DNA from: a virus
Length of the DNA: 22,956 nucleotides
Reading direction: 5' to 3' (one strand)
Virus record (IMG/VR): IMGVR_UViG_3300009076_000053
Location: 1 to 22,956 of that record
Both the position numbers and the translations under genes were made by a program. The notes beneath the pieces are model-generated. The model searched no databases. It worked only from the letters and a program-made list of their open reading frames with translations, and was not told where the DNA came from. Below, one piece after another: positions 4,600 through 22,956 of this stretch (the first letter of the stretch is position 1; every line of letters begins with the position of its first letter).

Positions 4600-5574
4600 T
4601 TATTGTAATATAGCACTGAACAGCGATGCCCACTCCTGCTTCTTCACTTCCCAACTATGATGCGTATCAATGTGACGTTTGGCTGTTGATAACTTAGCTT
4701 CAGTGTTTTTACTACGGATATTCTCGATGGCTTGATTCAGCACGTTGACAAAGATATTCGCATGTACCTGACGATCCTCGGCAAACTGATACTCTCGGGC
4801 ATATCCAGCTGTGGTCTCGAATAATGCCGCATGGTTGGGGCATACTACCTCGCATTGAGCACTCATCGCCTCAAGTACAGCGATACATGAGGTTTCTGGC
4901 CAGATGTTAGGATAACCAAAGATATGCGCCTTCTTCAACGCTTCTCTGACCACATCATTAGGTTGATACCCATGATATGTCATTTGGGGGTGGGCTTTGA
5001 TCTGATCAAACAGAGGTTGGTATTGCTTATCGCGCTCTTCCCATCCATATATCGAGAATGACGAGTATACGTCAAGGTGAATGTTATCATTCGTCTCAGC
5101 CAGCTTCTCAAAGCAAGGGACGAGTAACTCTAATCCACGGTGCGGAGTTGTGTGATAGATGATGTTGATTTTATCAGTGGGCTTCGCCTCATCAAGCATA
5201 ATTGGGTCGATGGCGTTCTTCATTACCAGCGAACTTTGATACGGCACCCCCAATGCTAGATTATAAGTCTGCATCTGTTGGTTGCTGACGAATATCAGCT
5301 TGTCGAACCGATTCCTGCTGTCGACATCCTTTAGGTGGGAAACTTCGGGGTCATTGAATAGGTCGTGTAGCACTAATAGGTTGCGCTTACTCGTATCAAC
5401 ATTACGAACTCGTGAATGTATCACGTTAATCTTGTCTTCAATACCCATTTCAGTGATCAATCCCTTGATCCTGTCAGCCATCATCTCGGTGCCACCTTTA
5501 GCGCCGGTATAAGTCCCATCATCAGTTGGACCAAGAGCCTCAACTTCAGTGTCATCAATAATAGTCAGGCTCAT
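4600..5574 (-). CDS. GT4-family glycosyltransferase (GT-B fold)
   Basis: A 324-residue protein. The C-terminal half is a Glycos_transf_1 (GT4) domain: KNAIDP at 119-124, the HRGLELL phosphate/nucleotide loop at 145-151, and an EX7E pair with E227 (WPETSC) and E235 (VLEAMSA). The N-terminal half has GAKGGTEMMADRI at 24-36, as in other GT4 enzymes where a GGxE loop leads the first domain, and VLHDLFND at 68-75. Such enzymes are usually retaining and move a sugar from a nucleotide-sugar donor; donor and acceptor cannot be told here. It is translationally coupled (TAATG) to the small gene upstream and is the last member of the glycan-related set. Confidence 0.88.
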   Translation of the reverse strand: MSLTIIDDTEVEALGPTDDGTYTGAKGGTEMMADRIKGLITEMGIEDKINVIHSRVRNVDTSKRNLLVLHDLFNDPEVSHLKDVDSRNRFDKLIFVSNQQMQTYNLALGVPYQSSLVMKNAIDPIMLDEAKPTDKINIIYHTTPHRGLELLVPCFEKLAETNDNIHLDVYSSFSIYGWEERDKQYQPLFDQIKAHPQMTYHGYQPNDVVREALKKAHIFGYPNIWPETSCIAVLEAMSAQCEVVCPNHAALFETTAGYAREYQFAEDRQVHANIFVNVLNQAIENIRSKNTEAKLSTAKRHIDTHHSWEVKKQEWASLFSAILQ

Positions 5575-13527: not shown

Positions 13528-14736
13528 TCATTCCTTCTCTGTGTTATATGCTTCGTCCCAGCCCCCTGTCAAACCTGCTACCTCATACTCAGTAACTCGG
13601 TTCTCGAAGAAGTTTGTGTGGTCAGCACCATTAAGTACCCACTCCAACCATGGTAACGGATTCTCTTTAACTTTAAAGTTTGTTTGCAGCCCAAGCTGTA
13701 ACAACCTTCGATCAGTGATATATCGGATATATTGCTTCACTTCTGAAGCTTCAAGACCCTCAACAGCACCCATCTTATAAGCGAGATCAACAAACTTATC
13801 TTCTAACTTGACAGCTTGCCTCGCTATCTCATATATATCTTTCTTGAAATCTTCATCCACAATGCGGGGATGCTCGGCGCAATACGCTTTGAATAACTTA
13901 GAGTTGCCCTCAACATGGATAGACTCATCTCGAATAGACCACTCTACAACCTTACCCATACCTTTCATCTTACCGAAACGCTGGAAGTTCAGTAGCATAA
14001 CGAATGACGCAAATAATGCCACCCCTTCATTGAATACTGATTTAGCCAGACATAGTCCTAGACCTCGAACCGTAGTAACATCAGCTTCCATCATGAAATC
14101 AATCTTATCAGCCATCTCGCTGTACTCAAGGAATGCGTGGTATTCAGCATCAGATAGTCCTAGAGTTTCATTAAGTAGCGCATACGCACGTTGGTGAATG
14201 CCCTCTCGGCCAGCAAAAGAACCAAGCATATTTCGCACTTCATTGTTCTTGAACTTAGGGATAAACTGATCATAGTAGTTTTGACCAACAGCAACGTCAG
14301 ATTGAGTGAACAGGCGTAGAATATTGGTAGTGTATTCTTTCTCTGTAAAGCTCATCTTTCCCATTTTCCAGTCAGTCACGTCTTCAGATAAGTCAATCTC
14401 ATCCTCAATCCAGTGAGCCTTCTCATGACGAGTAGTAATATCTACCGCCCATGGATAATGGAATGGCTTATATGTCTCTGAAAACTGCATCAAACCGCCT
14501 TGCTTCTTGACGTATGAATCAGCAACCTTCATAAAGTCATCATAGGTGCCGATCAACTTCTCGTCAATGAAGATCTGGGGAACTGACCTTGCTCCTGGAA
14601 TCTTCTGATAGAACGCCATACGCTGTTCTTCATCATCAAGGTTAATCTCAGTGAATTTGTATCCATGGGATTTGAACCAAAACTTAGCCTTTTCACAAAA
14701 TGGGCAATTGCTCTTACTATAGATCGTTACTTCCAA
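13528..14736 (-). CDS. nrdB: Ribonucleotide reductase beta subunit fused to glutaredoxin
   Basis: A 402-residue protein. Residues 1-80 are a glutaredoxin (MEVTIYSKSNCPFCEKAKFW, active site C11-P-F-C14; VPQIFID at 52-58). Residues 90-402 are a class Ia NrdB with all iron ligands and the radical tyrosine: D147, E178, H181, Y185 (EGIHQRAY), E237, E271 and H274 (RDESIHVEG). The D-to-E and E-to-E spacings of 31 and 34 match E. coli NrdB. The fused domain could reduce NrdA directly, replacing the separate NrdC of T4. No ATG lies before the Grx domain: the start is TTG at 14736, with AGGAG seven bases upstream. The longer frame to 14868 would run into nrdA. Confidence 0.9.
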   Translation of the reverse strand: MEVTIYSKSNCPFCEKAKFWFKSHGYKFTEINLDDEEQRMAFYQKIPGARSVPQIFIDEKLIGTYDDFMKVADSYVKKQGGLMQFSETYKPFHYPWAVDITTRHEKAHWIEDEIDLSEDVTDWKMGKMSFTEKEYTTNILRLFTQSDVAVGQNYYDQFIPKFKNNEVRNMLGSFAGREGIHQRAYALLNETLGLSDAEYHAFLEYSEMADKIDFMMEADVTTVRGLGLCLAKSVFNEGVALFASFVMLLNFQRFGKMKGMGKVVEWSIRDESIHVEGNSKLFKAYCAEHPRIVDEDFKKDIYEIARQAVKLEDKFVDLAYKMGAVEGLEASEVKQYIRYITDRRLLQLGLQTNFKVKENPLPWLEWVLNGADHTNFFENRVTEYEVAGLTGGWDEAYNTEKE

Positions 14737-14785
14737 TTTACTTCTCCTAGAATATGTATATTTCGTTTTATTTGATTCATTATCC

Positions 14786-16579
14786 TCAGCCTTCGCAAGC
14801 AACACAGCCGGATTGGGTGTCATCATCAGCTGTAGAAGATGGGTCGCTGAATTCAGCCAATCTATCACGCGCTACCTTCTGCGAGACGTTCTCTGCTTTG
14901 TTAGAAGTCTCAGTTCTCAGGTAGTATAACCCTTTTGTGCCATATTGCCAAGCATTAAAATGTACTTTATGTAGATACGATTTAGTTGCCCCAGATGGGA
15001 AGAATATGTTCAAAGACTGACCTTGACATAAGAACTCCTGTCGGTCACCGGCTTGCTTGACGATAACGTCCTGATCAAGCTCAATTGCTGTTTTGAATAC
15101 ATCCTTCAGGCGGTCTGATAGAAAGTCTAGATGCTGTACCGAGCCGCCGCTGGTGATGATTGACGACCAGATCTCAGTAGTATTCTTTCCTAGCGCCTCA
15201 AGATCTTCTTCAAGATACTTGTTCTTAGTCAAATGCGAACCAGCGCGTGTACGGGATGTAAACGCATTAGCTTTCCATGGCTCAATCGAAGGTGAAGTAC
15301 CGCCAATAAGCGAGCTGTTAGCATTAGGCGCGATAGCCAATAAGTGCGCATTTCTACGACCAGTACCTGCCATATCAGGTGCTTCGCCCTTTTCTTCACC
15401 GATCCTTACACTCTCGGCGATAGCTTTAGTCTGGATATCTTCAAAGATTGATTTGTTTAATAGCCCTGCATAGTCAGATTCAAACGCAATTCTGTGCTTT
15501 TGCAGGTAGCTGTGATAGCCCATTGCTCCGAGACCCAAACTGCGCTCTTGCACTGCAGAATACCTTGCTCGGGAAATTTCGTCTCCTGCGTTTTCAATAA
15601 AGAACTGCAAGACGTTGTCAAGGAAACGAATAAGATCGGCAACAATAGTCGAATCTTTCCATTCATCATATTTCTCCAAGTTGAGAGAGGATAAGCAACA
15701 TACGGCGCTACGGTCTTCATTCGTAGGCAGGTGAATCTCGTTACATAAGTTAGAACCATTAATCCTAAGACCCAAATCGCGTTGGGTTTCTGGCATAGCT
15801 CGGTTAGCTGTATCAATGAAGTTTAGGTATGGCTCGCCTGTACGGTATCGAGTCTCAAGAAGCAGTTCCCAAAGGTGCCGAGCCTTTTTAGTTTCTCGAA
15901 CGTCAGACTTATTAGGATCTTTCAATTCCCAGTCGGCATTATCACGCACAGCTTCCATAAACTCATCGGTCAAGTTTACCGCATGGTGTAGGTTTAGACA
16001 CTTGCGGTTCACATCACCGGTAGGAATGCGCATATTGATAAATTCAAGAATATCAGGGTGAGATATATCCATATATGCAGCGTATGAGCCTTTGCGAGTC
16101 TTGCCTTGGCGATACGCAGTCATATCACTATCTACTGTATGTAGGAAAGGCATAGGTCCAGGAGCAACATCAGATACTGACCGAATGTCAGACCAATGGC
16201 CTCCGACGCCGCCGCCCTTTACTGACAACCAGCGCAGCTCTGCGCTATGATCAATCAGCCCCTCAAGTGTATCAGGAACGTATGTCAAGAAACAAGATAT
16301 CGGCAGAGCCTTAACCTTCTCCCCCTTTATAGGAGCATTAGATAGAACTGGTGAAGAGAACATGAACCAACCCTTCGAAGCTCCATCATAAATTCTCTGA
16401 GCCAGCTTCTTATCACCATAACAGTACGCAGCTGCGGCGCGGGCAAATGCTTCTTGTGGGGATGTCTCATCGTCACGGCAATAATAATCTTTAAGAAGTT
16501 TAACAGCCTGTTCTGTCATCACTTCGTCACGGTTGTAATCTATTCGCACACCGTGGTGCTTGCTTGGCATACCCAGCAT
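14786..16579 (-). CDS. nrdA: Ribonucleotide reductase alpha subunit, class Ia
   Basis: A 597-residue protein that reduces ribonucleoside diphosphates to deoxy forms. Visible active-site residues are C96 (PISCFLTYVPD), the N-L-C-N-E block N277, C279 (thiyl radical) and E281, the second half of the redox pair at C294/C295, the radical-path tyrosines Y552-Y553 (LYYLRTE) and a C-terminal reducing pair C592-x2-C595 (GCVACEG). It is much shorter than E. coli or T4 NrdA (about 750-760 residues): the N-terminal ATP-cone is absent, so dATP shut-off via that domain is not expected. The start is ATG 16579 with AAGG about eight bases upstream; ATG at 16570 is also possible. It is followed after 48 bases by nrdB. 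Confidence 0.95.
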   Translation of the reverse strand: MLGMPSKHHGVRIDYNRDEVMTEQAVKLLKDYYCRDDETSPQEAFARAAAAYCYGDKKLAQRIYDGASKGWFMFSSPVLSNAPIKGEKVKALPISCFLTYVPDTLEGLIDHSAELRWLSVKGGGVGGHWSDIRSVSDVAPGPMPFLHTVDSDMTAYRQGKTRKGSYAAYMDISHPDILEFINMRIPTGDVNRKCLNLHHAVNLTDEFMEAVRDNADWELKDPNKSDVRETKKARHLWELLLETRYRTGEPYLNFIDTANRAMPETQRDLGLRINGSNLCNEIHLPTNEDRSAVCCLSSLNLEKYDEWKDSTIVADLIRFLDNVLQFFIENAGDEISRARYSAVQERSLGLGAMGYHSYLQKHRIAFESDYAGLLNKSIFEDIQTKAIAESVRIGEEKGEAPDMAGTGRRNAHLLAIAPNANSSLIGGTSPSIEPWKANAFTSRTRAGSHLTKNKYLEEDLEALGKNTTEIWSSIITSGGSVQHLDFLSDRLKDVFKTAIELDQDVIVKQAGDRQEFLCQGQSLNIFFPSGATKSYLHKVHFNAWQYGTKGLYYLRTETSNKAENVSQKVARDRLAEFSDPSSTADDDTQSGCVACEG

Positions 16580-16593
16580 ATAATACCTTCTAA

Positions 16594-16788
16594 TTAAGTT
16601 GTTTGTTTTTGTACTTTTCGTACTGTTAATTCGCCAAGGCACCAATCTTCTGCGGTCTCTTCAGCGTTCCATTTCTCGCCAGGAATACGAGCAATGAGTT
16701 TATCTCCTTCGAACAATTCCACTTTGTAGTCGTGACTAACAACTGCTCTCAGTCGTTTGTCTTCACTCATATGTTCTGATAAAATCAT
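16594..16788 (-). CDS. Small conserved phage protein between primase and nrdA
   Basis: A 64-residue protein, MILSEHMSEDKRLRAVVSHD and then YKVELFEGDKLIARIPGEKW, AEETAEDWCLGELTVRKV. The pattern of short strands followed by AEDWC.G.L is similar to a small hypothetical family in marine T4-like phages (AEDA-ENWV-G-L). The function is unknown. The ATG overlaps the primase TGA (ATGA) and GGAG lies six bases upstream; an alternative ATG six codons later is less well placed. It precedes nrdA by 14 bases. Confidence 0.65.
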   Translation of the reverse strand: MILSEHMSEDKRLRAVVSHDYKVELFEGDKLIARIPGEKWNAEETAEDWCLGELTVRKVQKQTT

Positions 16789-17813
16789 ACTCTACTCCAT
16801 TCTGATAACTTAGCTTTTGCGGCTAATCCGTCAAAGGTGTTACTACTTATAATTTCTGAAACTTCGCTGACGCTCATACCAGACATTATCATATCATTTA
16901 TGTCTTTTTCACGAATATTTTTAGGAAACAATACAATAGCATGGTTTCTATCAATAGATTTCTTTATCCTACGAACTATCTGCGCGCTTCTCGGCTCGTT
17001 GTCGTAAACGAAGATATAGTCGGCAGAAATCCTATCAAGACCACTGACGTCTGCTCCAGCCATCGCAATTGCGTTATTTACGAACATGCTATCAATTGGA
17101 CCTTCCACAACATAGACTGGTTTAGTAGGATCCATGGTGTCTAGGCCAAATATCTTAGGCGCATCTTCGTCAATCATGATAGTTATATACTTGAGATCTG
17201 AGTTGCCCAATGCTCTTCCTTGAAATCCAATCAGATTATCATCCTGATCAATAAACGGTATGATCAGTCGAGGCTCGTCTTTAGATATCTCGGGGAACTT
17301 ATTAGGAATACACTGATTCACGAACTCATAGAATTTGGGCGCGTAGAACAGTTTGAAGTGGTAGTTGCTGGGGATCATCCTAGACACGACATATCGCTTG
17401 GCTTTATGTCCTGGCATTAGCTGGGATACTTTCTTGAGTTTGCCGAGTGGAGTCTTCAGATAGCTCGCTTTCTTCTTGAACCTGAACTCGGTCTTGGTCT
17501 TTGCTGTGGTTGTGTTAGCAACCTTCTTATGCCCACCGCTATCCTTAAATTTCTCCATGGCATATTCTTTATGCAACATCGGGTTCACGTGCTTTATTAG
17601 GTTGTTGAGGGATGCGCCGTGACCGCAGTTATGACATTTGAATATGTAGGAGGCTTCTTTGAGGAAAACGTATCCGCGAGCCTTGTTTAAATTAGTCTGC
17701 GAATCTAGACAATATGGACAGCGAAAGTTCCATAGATTGTCATTCTTCTGCTTGAAGTGCGAAAGTTGCGCAGACAGGAGGTTTAGGTATTTGCTTTCAA
17801 TATAATTACTCAT
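16785..17813 (-). CDS. DNA primase, T4 gp61-like
   Basis: A 342-residue protein, the same length as T4 gp61, the primase that makes RNA primers with the gp41 helicase. It has an N-terminal zinc finger, C32-x2-C35 (RCPYCLDS) and C60-x2-C63 (KCHNCGHG), then a TOPRIM core: IIPFIDQDDNLIGFQGRALG at about 184-203, YVVEGPIDSMF with E237 and D241, and YIFVYDNEPR with D271 and E273 as metal ligands. The ATG at 17813 is chosen over a TTG at 17837 because the N-terminus then aligns with gp61 and because the TTG would lie within the promoter. The promoter places transcription start at or next to this ATG, so the main transcript may be leaderless. No clear Shine-Dalgarno is seen. Confidence 0.9.
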   Translation of the reverse strand: MSNYIESKYLNLLSAQLSHFKQKNDNLWNFRCPYCLDSQTNLNKARGYVFLKEASYIFKCHNCGHGASLNNLIKHVNPMLHKEYAMEKFKDSGGHKKVANTTTAKTKTEFRFKKKASYLKTPLGKLKKVSQLMPGHKAKRYVVSRMIPSNYHFKLFYAPKFYEFVNQCIPNKFPEISKDEPRLIIPFIDQDDNLIGFQGRALGNSDLKYITIMIDEDAPKIFGLDTMDPTKPVYVVEGPIDSMFVNNAIAMAGADVSGLDRISADYIFVYDNEPRSAQIVRRIKKSIDRNHAIVLFPKNIREKDINDMIMSGMSVSEVSEIISSNTFDGLAAKAKLSEWSRV

Positions 17814-17819
17814 GTACTC

Positions 17820-17848
17820 ATTATATAATAGAACCAATCAAATGTCAA
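17820..17848 (-). promoter_or_regulatory. Perfect sigma70-type promoter for the primase group
   Basis: On the minus strand, TTGACA (17848-17843), 17 bases, TATAAT (17825-17820). It starts 9 bases downstream of the preceding gene and would drive primase, nrdA and nrdB. The -10 ends only six bases before the primase ATG (17813), so the predicted +1 is the A of the ATG or a base next to it. Confidence 0.88.
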
Positions 17849-17856
17849 GAGTTATT

Positions 17857-18222
17857 TTAGAATCCCATCGATTCTTTTATCATCGGCCAAAGCATGGCAA
17901 AGACAATAACGCCACCGGCAGCTTGCCATTTCCATTGCTCAAGTTTAGCTACCCTATTGGACATTTCCTTCGCATGTTCACGCTGCTCTTCCTTCATCTC
18001 GCGAATTTCAACCATTATTTCTTTATGAGACTGGCTTATCTCTTTGTGTAATTCATCACGCAATGCGCCAATCCTCTTATGCAAGATATCCTGCTGCTGT
18101 TGAGCCTCGATACGGCGTTCCTCAAGTAGATTAAATAAATCCATACTAACGGATACCTTCTTAAGTTCTTCTTGCTCAAACACTATCTTAGGCTGGGCAT
18201 ATTTGGGTTGTGTGGTTTGCAT
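17857..18222 (-). CDS. Coiled-coil protein with C-terminal membrane anchor
   Basis: A 121-residue protein. Residues about 14-98 are a long charged helix with heptad-like spacing (FEQEELKKVSVSMD, EERRIEAQQQQD, LHKEISQSHKEIMVE, EMKEEQREHAKEM, RVAKLEQW). Residues about 101-116 form one membrane segment (WQAAGGVIVFAMLWPM), and four to five residues remain outside. This is the layout of XhlA-type and similar membrane-associated phage proteins found with lysis genes, though the sequence match is not specific. It follows a late-type promoter that starts 28 bases before the ATG; no good Shine-Dalgarno is seen. It closes the lysis-like module. Alternative: a tail or envelope-attached accessory protein. 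Confidence 0.65.
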   Translation of the reverse strand: MQTTQPKYAQPKIVFEQEELKKVSVSMDLFNLLEERRIEAQQQQDILHKRIGALRDELHKEISQSHKEIMVEIREMKEEQREHAKEMSNRVAKLEQWKWQAAGGVIVFAMLWPMIKESMGF

Positions 18223-18249
18223 AGATTATGTAATCACGTTATGTGAGTA

Positions 18250-18257
18250 TATTTATA
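18250..18257 (-). promoter_or_regulatory. T4-type late promoter TATAAATA
   Basis: The minus strand reads TATAAATA, the exact -10 recognised by the T4 late sigma gp55. It overlaps the stop codon of the upstream gene (the TAA lies within it) and lies 28 bases before the next ATG. It is the only exact copy I found in the window. That the phage has a gp55-type late system is inferred from its T4-like genes; no gp55 or gp33 lies in this window. Confidence 0.65.
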
Positions 18258-18504
18258 CTTTGGAATTCTTGGCTGGAGCACTAGCTTCTTCTAGAGCACG
18301 AATTCTTTCCGCCAAATTAGGATATTCCTTTAACCAAGCTTCTTCGCGCTCAGCAATCTTAATATCATACTTAACAGCAACATACTCCATAAACCTGTTT
18401 ATATGAGCCTGCAACCATACGCCAACTCGAGTGTTCTTAAACCAGTTATAGAACGAGCTTCCTATAATTGATCCTAGAATAGATTTTAGTATAAACCAAT
18501 ACAT
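18253..18504 (-). CDS. Small membrane-anchored protein with helical tail
   Basis: An 83-residue protein starting MYWFILKSILGSIIGSSFYN. The first about 16 residues are hydrophobic enough for a membrane anchor, and then come WFKNTRVGVWLQAHINRFMEYV and a charged helical end (KIAEREEAWLKEYPNLAERI, ALEEASAPAKNSKV). A longer frame up to 18864 lies inside the lipase gene in another frame and is not real. The ATG at 18504 comes one base after the lipase stop; an AAGG lies rather far upstream. The family is not recognised. Its place between the lipase and the coiled-coil membrane protein suggests a lysis or envelope role. Confidence 0.65.
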   Translation of the reverse strand: MYWFILKSILGSIIGSSFYNWFKNTRVGVWLQAHINRFMEYVAVKYDIKIAEREEAWLKEYPNLAERIRALEEASAPAKNSKV

Positions 18505-18505
18505 G

Positions 18506-19252
18506 TTATTCGTCAACCTTAAAGTTATCTTTATTATCTTCGATATTCTTAATATAGTTCCAGATGCCATGATCAGTGAACATATCAAGGAATTTACCCT
18601 GTTTCCAACCAGACCATATCCCGCGGAAGAAATCCTTAACTCGCTGCCATGATGTAAGCGCACGAACCTGCCCATATGCATTGAAGTATATCTTCTCACC
18701 ATCATGCTTGAACCCAAGTATAGCAGGCGGCACAGTACAAACGATGTCATTGTTATTGACGAAGCGATAGTGCGGACAATCAAGGTTCTTAGTGAACTTA
18801 CGACCACCAACACGCGGCGACCCAAAGGTGTATAGTTCCTCAGCACTACACCGGCTGGCGGCAATAGTAGCCATAGCAGCGCCCAATGAGTGGCCAGTGA
18901 AAAATAGTTTCTTTGGCTTCTTTAGGTTGTTATTGTTTTCAATCTCTTTGAGGCAGTCCATCCACAACTCATTAACTTCATCCTGGAACCCTGTATGAAC
19001 CTTACCGCCAGCAATTGATGAATTGCGAATTACATTTAGGTCAGCCATAACGTCATTCAATTTATCAGGCTGAGTGCCACGAAATGCGAACCATAACTCA
19101 CCACCGCCCCGAGCGACTAATACTTCAGCACCGTTTTTGCTGATCAACTTACCTGTCAATCCTATAGACTTGCAAGCCTTTTTCACTTGTTCTTCGGTGG
19201 CGTATGCGTATGCTGACAAGCAGCTTGCGCGGTATGCTCTATCATAATTCAT
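18506..19252 (-). CDS. Class 3 lipase (alpha/beta hydrolase)
   Basis: A 248-residue protein of the Lipase_3 group. The nucleophile elbow GHSLG is at 120-124 (S122), followed by the usual small residues AAMATIA. YTFGSPRVGG (141-150) and the aspartate in RFVNNNDIVCTVPP (D169) are standard for this family, and His228 in TDHGIW is the probable third triad member. WFAFRGTQ at 54-61 gives the oxyanion-hole region, and VHTGFQDEVNELW is the family's helix before the elbow. Such enzymes cut acyl esters of glycerides or phospholipids. No signal peptide is visible, so it probably acts in the cytoplasm or after membrane opening. It overlaps the spanin lipoprotein gene by 11 bases. Confidence 0.88.
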   Translation of the reverse strand: MNYDRAYRASCLSAYAYATEEQVKKACKSIGLTGKLISKNGAEVLVARGGGELWFAFRGTQPDKLNDVMADLNVIRNSSIAGGKVHTGFQDEVNELWMDCLKEIENNNNLKKPKKLFFTGHSLGAAMATIAASRCSAEELYTFGSPRVGGRKFTKNLDCPHYRFVNNNDIVCTVPPAILGFKHDGEKIYFNAYGQVRALTSWQRVKDFFRGIWSGWKQGKFLDMFTDHGIWNYIKNIEDNKDNFKVDE

Positions 19253-19637
19253 CTTCTTGCTCCGGTTCAGGTTCGTCAGATACTGACTTTTCGTAGTAGA
19301 TTATAAGTTCTTTCTGCTGTAATATATAGCGTTTCAACTCAGACATGTTCAGTGCTAGGGTTTCATAGTCTCGAACTGACATAGCGTAGAAAACAACAGA
19401 CCCATTCTCTTTCTCGAACCGCTCAATGAACTCTTCCATATTGCGCTCGGTGACAACATACCATTGTATGTCATTTAAGTCTACTTGCTTTGGCCTTTCC
19501 TGAACAGGAATGTTTGACTTGACAATCTCAGTCTTGGTGACTGTTTCTGTTAGTGCCCGATATGTATTACAGCCTGATAGAAATATGCTACTTAGCAGTA
19601 TCAGACTCAATGCTTTTAAATAGCGCTGATGTCCCAT
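19242..19637 (-). CDS. Outer-membrane lipoprotein spanin (Rz1-like)
   Basis: A 131-residue protein with a type II signal peptide: a basic start (MGHQRYLK), a hydrophobic stretch (ALSLILLSSIFL) and the lipobox LSGC with the modified Cys at 23. The mature part has TETVTKTEIVKSNIPVQERP and an acidic end (DEPEPEQEDEL). With the inner-membrane partner overlapping upstream by 50 bases in another frame, this is the arrangement of two-component spanins, which fuse inner and outer membranes at the last step of lysis. It is longer than lambda Rz1 (60 residues) and not proline-rich, so the call rests on lipobox and position. Confidence 0.82.
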   Translation of the reverse strand: MGHQRYLKALSLILLSSIFLSGCNTYRALTETVTKTEIVKSNIPVQERPKQVDLNDIQWYVVTERNMEEFIERFEKENGSVVFYAMSVRDYETLALNMSELKRYILQQKELIIYYEKSVSDEPEPEQEDEL

Positions 19638-19965
19638 TGTTTATTCTCGTCTCAATTAGTCCAGGTTTCTTTAGGCTGAGTTTGGTCAAATCATGCTTAC
19701 GCAATTGGCCAATCAGTTTATCCTGATATTGCTCAGCTTGTTGTAAATTAACTTGTAAGTCTTTTGTCAACGCAGCTTGAAGCTGAGCAGTTGCTTGCAT
19801 AGAATCTATGGTTGCTAAATTAGATTGATTTGCTGACTTGAGAGTGGCGTTATTAGCTGTTAGTTGAGAGATACGAGCCTGTGAGTCCTTGTAGTAAGCA
19901 TAAGCGCCATATAAAGACCCTCCCACAACCGCAAATAATGCCAAAAACATGTATATTCTGAACAT
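19588..19965 (-). CDS. Inner-membrane spanin (Rz-like)
   Basis: A 125-residue protein with one N-terminal membrane segment at about 4-24 (IYMFLALFAVVGGSLYGAYAY), then a periplasmic coiled-coil-like helix (DSQARISQLTANNATLKSAN, TKDLQVNLQQAEQYQDKLIG) and a C-terminal LRKHDLTKLSLKKPGLIETR and INNGTSALFKSIE. This C-terminal block is familiar from marine T4-like phages. The orientation N-in, C-out and the overlap with a lipoprotein gene fit an i-spanin. AGAGGTAATT precedes the ATG. Confidence 0.82.
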   Translation of the reverse strand: MFRIYMFLALFAVVGGSLYGAYAYYKDSQARISQLTANNATLKSANQSNLATIDSMQATAQLQAALTKDLQVNLQQAEQYQDKLIGQLRKHDLTKLSLKKPGLIETRINNGTSALFKSIESDTAK

Positions 19966-22259: not shown

Positions 22260-22760
22260 TTATTCTGGAAGTTGAGCGTCATCAGCCGCATCGCCAGAGA
22301 TAGAGCTTCCAGCAACCAATACTTCGTATGATACGCGACCAGCGCGACCACCTGAACCTTCGGTTCGACGAACCCAACCAGCGTGAGGAACTGCATCAGC
22401 CTCAGTACCAGCAGTGTTAGCATAAGCCATTTCGTCTGTATCTACGCCGAAGATCTTACTAGCATCGCCGTTAGCTTCAGAGTACACAACGTACAAAGGC
22501 TTCTCGGATACTACATATGCTCCGTTAGCTTGAGCGCCAACTAATGCGCCGCCATTAATGCCAGAACGAACAGTAGCAATTGATGCGTTAGCAATAGCAG
22601 TGAATACATAGTCATTGCCGCCTACATTTAAGAAATCGCCAACAGCGAATACTGACAGATCACCGCCGCCAGCGGCTTCAACAGTGCTATTAGCAGCTGA
22701 CACTACTACAGTGCCAGTTCCTGAACCTGTCTTCAGGTCTTTATTACCCCATAAACTCAT
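22260..22760 (-). CDS. Conserved structural protein (MSLWGNKD type)
   Basis: A 166-residue protein. MSLWGNKDLKTGSGTGTVVV, then GDFLNVGGNDYVFTAIANAS, YVVSEKPLYVVYSEAN, FGVDTDEM, VPHAGWVRR and GGRAGRVSYEVLVAGSSIS, matches a virion-associated protein of marine T4-like phages (MSLWGNKD, GVD..E, THAGWV, GR..YE.LVA). These are mostly beta and are thought to be head or neck structural parts; the precise place is not known to me. AAGAGGATAACGAA gives a good ribosome site. Confidence 0.75.
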   Translation of the reverse strand: MSLWGNKDLKTGSGTGTVVVSAANSTVEAAGGGDLSVFAVGDFLNVGGNDYVFTAIANASIATVRSGINGGALVGAQANGAYVVSEKPLYVVYSEANGDASKIFGVDTDEMAYANTAGTEADAVPHAGWVRRTEGSGGRAGRVSYEVLVAGSSISGDAADDAQLPE

Positions 22761-22795: not shown

Positions 22796-22956
22796 TTATT
22801 TAGTATTTTTCATAGCCAATTTTTGAGAGGTCGCTTCCATCACAGCTTCCCAGCGACTACCATACTTTTTCTTAAACATTGATTCGTCTAACTTAGGATC
22901 AACGTCAACCTTTTCTTTTTTGCCCGAATCAATATCCTTATCATCTTTCTTCTTAG
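22796..22956 (-). CDS. C-terminal end of a late gene, cut by the window edge
   Basis: The last 52 codons of a gene running in from the right edge: a highly charged front (KKKDDKDIDSGKKEKVDVDP) followed by DESMFKKKYGSRWEAVMEAT and ending LAMKNTK, then TAA. The charged linker plus a short helical KKKYG..WEAVM end is the sort of tail seen on phage structural or scaffold proteins, but the family cannot be named. It lies 35 bases upstream of the MSLWGNKD gene, with no promoter between them. Confidence 0.7.
   Translation of the reverse strand, partial: KKKDDKDIDSGKKEKVDVDPKLDESMFKKKYGSRWEAVMEATSQKLAMKNTK

Follow-up and report, generated by a model that had tools for sequence, protein, structure and literature searches.

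Class 3 lipase or DUF1353 behind the spanins of T4-like marine phages: a possible lipolytic component of the lysis cassette

A spanin pair, a class 3 lipase and a small one-TM protein (here 'small') stand together in a fragment of a T4-like marine myovirus, and we think it fairly likely that together they are a lysis cassette expressed late, in which a membrane-targeted lipolytic enzyme is the fourth component and aids envelope rupture. The fragment is a virus record of 22,956 bases, hereafter the window. Most accounts of Gram-negative phage lysis name holin, endolysin and spanin as its components, or dispense with the spanin. The proposal draws on gene order, catalytic residues, recurrent non-homologous replacement of the enzyme, a pattern of transmembrane segments (TM) in cis or in trans and late-promoter motifs, all read from sequence; from these we infer the enzyme's activity here, its substrate, the membrane face and its effect on lysis. 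Spanins and the lipolytic LysB enzymes of mycobacterial phages are already known; for class 3 lipases and DUF1353, no published link to spanins was found in the open-access literature. The main text of a survey published in 2025 on the lytic proteins of prokaryotic viruses mentions neither lipases or phospholipases nor DUF1353 (PMC12596118), and a Klebsiella phage paper lists a 'phospholipase' among host-lysis genes, apparently without testing it (PMC9902359).

Gene layout and the class 3 lipase

The DNA of the ribonucleotide reductase (RNR) gene of the window shows a 72% match to Methylophilales phage Melnitz. In order of transcription, the minus strand encodes an i-spanin, an o-spanin, a class 3 lipase, 'small', a coiled-coil protein, a gp61-type primase and RNR. 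The features on which the argument depends are the following.

22797..22802, minus strand: late promoter core TAAATA, 5' of the gene that begins at 22760; the late transcript is proposed to start here
19588..19965, minus strand: i-spanin, 125 aa; PHROG 739 Rz-like spanin, 2.9e-13; N-terminal TM and periplasmic coiled coil
19242..19637, minus strand: o-spanin lipoprotein, 131 aa; PHROG 812 Rz-like spanin, 7.7e-15; lipobox LSGC
18506..19252, minus strand: class 3 lipase, 248 aa; Pfam Lipase_3, 8.6e-23; triad Ser122-Asp169-His228
18253..18504, minus strand: 'small', 83 aa; a single TM at the N-terminus and a charged coil at the C-terminus; would tether the enzyme to a membrane
18250..18257, minus strand: T4-type late promoter motif TATAAATA, 5' of the coiled-coil gene; the only exact match in the window
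17857..18222, minus strand: coiled-coil protein anchored by a TM at its C-terminus; related to DUF7201 proteins in Melnitz, Mosig and P-SSM2
16785-17837, minus strand: gp61-type primase

A sequence-only reading of this DNA had proposed the order of the first five genes, and it holds: all five ORFs of 17857-19965 are present on the minus strand, and dozens of diverged contigs keep the order, which shows that the spanin-lipase arrangement is not due to chance. The i-spanin and o-spanin frames overlap by 50 nt, those of the o-spanin and lipase by 11 nt, and 'small' starts one base past the lipase stop. An i-spanin with an N-terminal TM overlapping a lipoprotein o-spanin is what defines a two-component (Rz/Rz1-like) spanin, and the two proteins are 42% and 45% identical to gp33 and gp34 of Melnitz, respectively.

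The window lipase matches the Lipase_3 profile with 81 bits against a cut-off of 22 and carries a GHSLG nucleophile motif. The full Ser-Asp-His set claimed for it earlier is intact, and among 134 homologues it is kept in every lipase covering those columns. Its predicted model (pLDDT 90) has a lipase fold, and the nearest solved folds include fungal triacylglycerol lipases and plant phospholipase A1. Directly before the catalytic His228, residues 201-217 form a Trp-rich amphipathic helix with a moment of 0.60 as against 0.28 when shuffled, and 1.3% of shuffles were equally high. No signal peptide or TM was seen in the protein. The window lipase would be expected to hydrolyse lipids.

The enzyme slot behind the o-spanin

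To survey the slot, IMG/VR was searched with four queries (i-spanin, o-spanin, lipase and DUF1353), and purpose-built profiles served to score every ORF. Among the 80 contigs found with the i-spanin query, a count that includes near-duplicates, the gene after the o-spanin was Lipase_3 in 42, DUF1353 in 16, neither in 19 and truncated in three. The enzyme mostly overlaps or abuts the o-spanin, and in six loci a 242-aa gene lies between them. The slot lipase occurs in 20 lineages (less than about 80% alike), again mostly overlapping or abutting the o-spanin. The lipase is thus no acquisition of this phage only, a possibility the sequence-only reading had raised; it had also called for the gene order to be checked in relatives, where the same slot proved to be kept and DUF1353 is often present when the lipase is missing. 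Its suggestion that the lipase might assist envelope rupture gains support from this conservation of the slot and from the replacement by a family with demonstrated phospholipase A2 activity, while two points found here, the DUF1353 substitution and the pairing of 'small' with the enzyme, escaped it.

DUF1353 bears no sequence relation to Lipase_3. In Melnitz it fills the slot between o-spanin and coiled coil (Pfam 3.3e-14). The two families were not found together at any of the loci compared, and records of 123-142 kb hold one family each, the other being absent. On a maximum-likelihood tree of concatenated spanins from 73 dereplicated loci, some of which came from the lipase and DUF1353 queries, the two enzymes must have been exchanged at least seven times; taken by itself, the lipase label needs eight changes, at least five of these being forced by well-supported branches. 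This is a quick tree with a few unsure long branches, and several of the swaps fall within the well-supported Melnitz-like clade. The o-spanin query recovered mainly more distant phages, with either enzyme in 9 of 80. Together with the 19 enzyme-less loci of the i-spanin query, these distant phages, most of which have neither enzyme, indicate that spanins can be used without this function. In two of the distant phages with the same o-spanin family (L171 and L156), the gene after the o-spanin resembles a T4-lysozyme-type endolysin by sequence.

What DUF1353 may do is suggested by TtaP of the typhoid-toxin islet, a member of the family with no homology to the window lipase. TtaP is a phospholipase A2 by assay, and D85A abolishes its activity; it acts in the bacterium, stays cell-associated and is not known to lyse the cell, and no role in phage lysis is described for it (PMC11525133). 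It resembles prophage DUF1353 proteins, just as the islet muramidase TtsA resembles prophage muramidases (PMC11525133). H132-D133 and D158 are kept in 68/68 DUF1353 proteins, and from the motif they would be the counterparts of the TtaP dyad residues. A profile search of PDB sequences gave no match for DUF1353, and Foldseek with a predicted model of pLDDT 73 returned nothing significant; a second fold comparison placed a secretory phospholipase A2 in the top row, a weak match at Z 4.7.

DUF1353 genes are labelled 'tail assembly chaperone' in many phage records; PHROG 1158, which bears this name, matches every DUF1353 protein scanned (L004:3658-4263, L334:2938-3330 and L337:2965-3414 among them), and a single DUF1353 query matched 252 phage records. 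The label is probably wrong, given the phospholipase A2 activity of TtaP and the lysis genes found next to DUF1353. In half of the sampled phage lineages (9 of 18), DUF1353 has a recognised lysis gene no more than three genes away, a raw count uncorrected for chance. The neighbours are the spanins in Melnitz, an adjacent i-spanin-like gene in HTVC008M (profile E 1.2e-11; PHROG 739, 4.4e-6), an amidase in both Cobetia Carin1 and Fusobacterium Fnu1, an endolysin and a holin in Fusobacterium phiRTG5, a lysozyme in a Helicobacter prophage, a lysozyme and an Rz-like spanin in Salmonella gmqsjt-1, and an M15 peptidase in Erwinia Phobos as well as in a second Helicobacter prophage. The other nine lineages have no lysis neighbour by annotation. 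Searching unannotated neighbours in four phages added no lysis families and confirmed only the i-spanin of gmqsjt-1. The count covers phage lineages; 24 loci in bacterial genomes were set aside, as many of their proteins are longer and their contexts are not clearly prophage.

These neighbourhoods bear on a different explanation, in which the enzyme serves lipid metabolism late in infection, releasing fatty acids or remodelling host membranes as an auxiliary metabolic function, and shares the spanin operon only because both are late genes. The enzyme carries no export signal, lipase relatives lie away from spanins at 72 loci in many contexts, and TtaP remains in the cell without lysing it (PMC11525133), all of which would suit such a role. 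A free-standing metabolic gene would not, however, be expected to sit in a fixed slot behind the o-spanin that is repeatedly refilled by an unrelated lipolytic enzyme, nor beside endolysins and holins in unrelated phages, as DUF1353 does, and we regard this explanation as unlikely.

'small' and the membrane tether

The two enzyme families differ in how they may reach a membrane, and the presence of 'small' follows that difference. Where DUF1353 bears its own TM, as called from simple hydropathy windows, 'small' never adjoins it (92/92 loci; 14/14 lineages at about 80% similarity), whereas 'small' always adjoins a TM-less DUF1353 (7/7 loci; 5/5 lineages). It accompanies the slot lipase in all 20 lineages and lies nearly always directly downstream; the exceptions concern distance, which is about 1 kb in L023/L024 and about 5 kb in contigs of the L047/L069 type. 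The simplest reading of this pattern is that each slot enzyme needs a membrane tether, either fused or separate. Could 'small' be a one-TM class III holin instead? This fits less well than an adaptor, because its presence is tied to the type of enzyme, and profile searches found no holin-family match for 'small' or for the coiled-coil protein.

The order lipase-'small' also recurs in unrelated genome contexts. Some antibacterial effectors are lipases paired with membrane immunity proteins, and since the lipase and 'small' stay closely coupled, with overlapping genes, from one context to the next, they might be a toxin-immunity-like pair for superinfection exclusion or competitor killing, with 'small' as the membrane antidote. 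We consider this quite improbable: 'small' is likewise found with the soluble DUF1353, an unrelated enzyme, but not where DUF1353 has its own TM, and a protein that tracks the TM-less enzymes of both families fits an anchor and not a specific antidote. In three contigs (L198, L199 and L200), the lipase-'small' genes adjoin genes that are curli-like and FecR/adenylate-cyclase-like by sequence. This neighbourhood is similar to the curli operon of Melnitz, for which a link to lysis control was proposed by the authors of the Melnitz paper (PMC9004378).

For the membrane face, the positive-inside rule was tried and set aside. The C-terminal flanks of 'small' and of the TM-bearing DUF1353 are rich in K/R, which is uninformative, as the i-spanin, which has to have its C-terminus in the periplasm and served as control, gave the same sign in 146/155; no membrane face is therefore claimed from it.

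If the lysis reading of spanins, lipase and 'small' is right, a soluble lipase would be made late in infection and recruited to a membrane by the single TM of 'small', where it would hydrolyse envelope phospholipids. The products, lysophospholipid and free fatty acid, could weaken the membranes and so ease the fusion of inner and outer membrane and the rupture brought about by the spanins, a step that would come after a peptidoglycan hydrolase encoded elsewhere had acted. In relatives, a DUF1353 phospholipase A2, with its own N-terminal TM or accompanied by 'small', would do the same job.

Late expression, partner genes and known lysis systems

The T4-type late core TAAATA stands upstream of the coiled-coil gene in 44 of 72 relatives (6.4 expected) and upstream of homologues of the gene starting at 22760 in 19/20 (1.8 expected), and no enrichment before the i-spanin was found in relatives. 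A motif before these two genes and not before the i-spanin agrees with a single late transcript that extends into the spanin and lipase genes; it would start at 22797..22802 and run on to the spanins. Lipases outside the spanin slot and without 'small' have a TAAATA of their own in 16/31, mostly 26-38 nt upstream.

The coiled-coil protein had earlier been counted in the lysis module. The gene and its C-terminal anchor are there, but its membership is doubtful, since it has its own late promoter and since Mosig and P-SSM2, which lack this arrangement of spanins and lipase, have relatives of it; it belongs instead to the primase neighbourhood and is probably a separate core late gene outside the cassette.

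Late expression would also be expected of virion proteins, and the upstream genes (22760 to 20138) may be structural, so the lipase could be imagined as a virion-associated enzyme that breaches the envelope at entry. The genes flanking it are spanins and a small membrane protein, though, and the DUF1353 that takes its place with a TM fused to it is hardly likely to belong to a virion; we hold this to be very improbable.

No complete holin-endolysin-spanin cassette was recognised around the spanins. As the sequence-only reading had it, no endolysin or classic holin was recognised beside them in family searches, holins being hard to recognise by sequence, and lysins of the GH108 and Hydrolase_2 families are absent from the window. 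A Hydrolase_2 gene lies far from the slot in G001, a relative of 133 kb with the lipase, and Melnitz carries GH108 as well as Hydrolase_2, so that peptidoglycan cleavage is probably encoded elsewhere. A candidate holin is a small EF-hand/2-TM protein (examples L193:5659-5985 and L211:7394-7822; upstream of the i-spanin in L096, L107, L134 and others). Of the 63 spanin loci with a copy of it, 38 have it directly beside the i-spanin (-3 to +19 nt), and in four lipase loci that lack these spanins its distance to the lipase is 10-13 nt; its closeness to both genes counts in favour of the lysis reading. No copy was found in the window.

Among known systems, lambda-type Rz/Rz1 and T4-type lysis share with the window a two-gene i-spanin/o-spanin arrangement with overlapping frames, and these cassettes are not known to contain a lipolytic enzyme. 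LysB attacks the outer lipid layer of mycobacteria, that is, the mycolyl layer. Like the proposed lipase, it is a lipolytic enzyme of a phage lysis cassette (PMC6116114), but LysB cassettes lack a two-gene spanin slot. The LysB family is cutinase-like, and the Pfam search reported no Cutinase match for the window lipase. Prochlorococcus phage P-SSM2 has a lipase of the same family as the window (PSSM2_200, 30% identity), which overlaps a short protein with a hydrophobic N-terminus and lies upstream of gp61 and nrdA; unlike in the window, no spanins adjoin it, and its partner matches another family, PHROG 402. Melnitz (MZ577095-98, Kyanoviridae) comes closest, with i-spanin, o-spanin, enzyme, coiled coil, primase and RNR in the same order, but its enzyme is a TM-bearing DUF1353 (gp35) and 'small' is missing. 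The Melnitz paper discusses curli pores and gp67 in lysis; in a search of its text, DUF1353 and lipase did not occur, and spanins are named once, for lambda (PMC9004378).

A broader proposal, towards which we are divided and lean slightly to doubt, is that lipid hydrolysis is a general and unrecognised fourth arm of Gram-negative phage lysis beside holin, endolysin and spanin, in which at least two unrelated families, Lipase_3 and the DUF1353 phospholipases A2, are interchangeable, the TM is supplied in cis or by an exchangeable one-TM adaptor, and many 'tail assembly chaperone' genes are lysis phospholipases. The swapping of lipase and DUF1353 in one slot suggests that digestion of membrane lipids is an overlooked step by which some viruses burst Gram-negative cells. 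If true, a recurrent lipolytic component would change the picture of lysis for abundant marine phages, give a function to DUF1353, which is 'unknown' to Pfam and a 'tail assembly chaperone' to PHROG, and suggest that the typhoid-islet phospholipase TtaP derives from a phage lysis cassette. The system also offers a clean test of the limits that membrane lipids set on spanin-driven fusion.

Two further features of the window lie apart from these genes. At 13528-14868, the small chain of ribonucleotide reductase is fused to an N-terminal glutaredoxin domain. Between 4600 and 12872, a run of minus-strand genes looks like one for sugar metabolism and transfer. It includes a group 1 glycosyltransferase at 4600-5574; sequence also suggests an epimerase for nucleotide sugars, a methyltransferase and other proteins similar to transferases. 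This run possibly serves the decoration of glycans or DNA.
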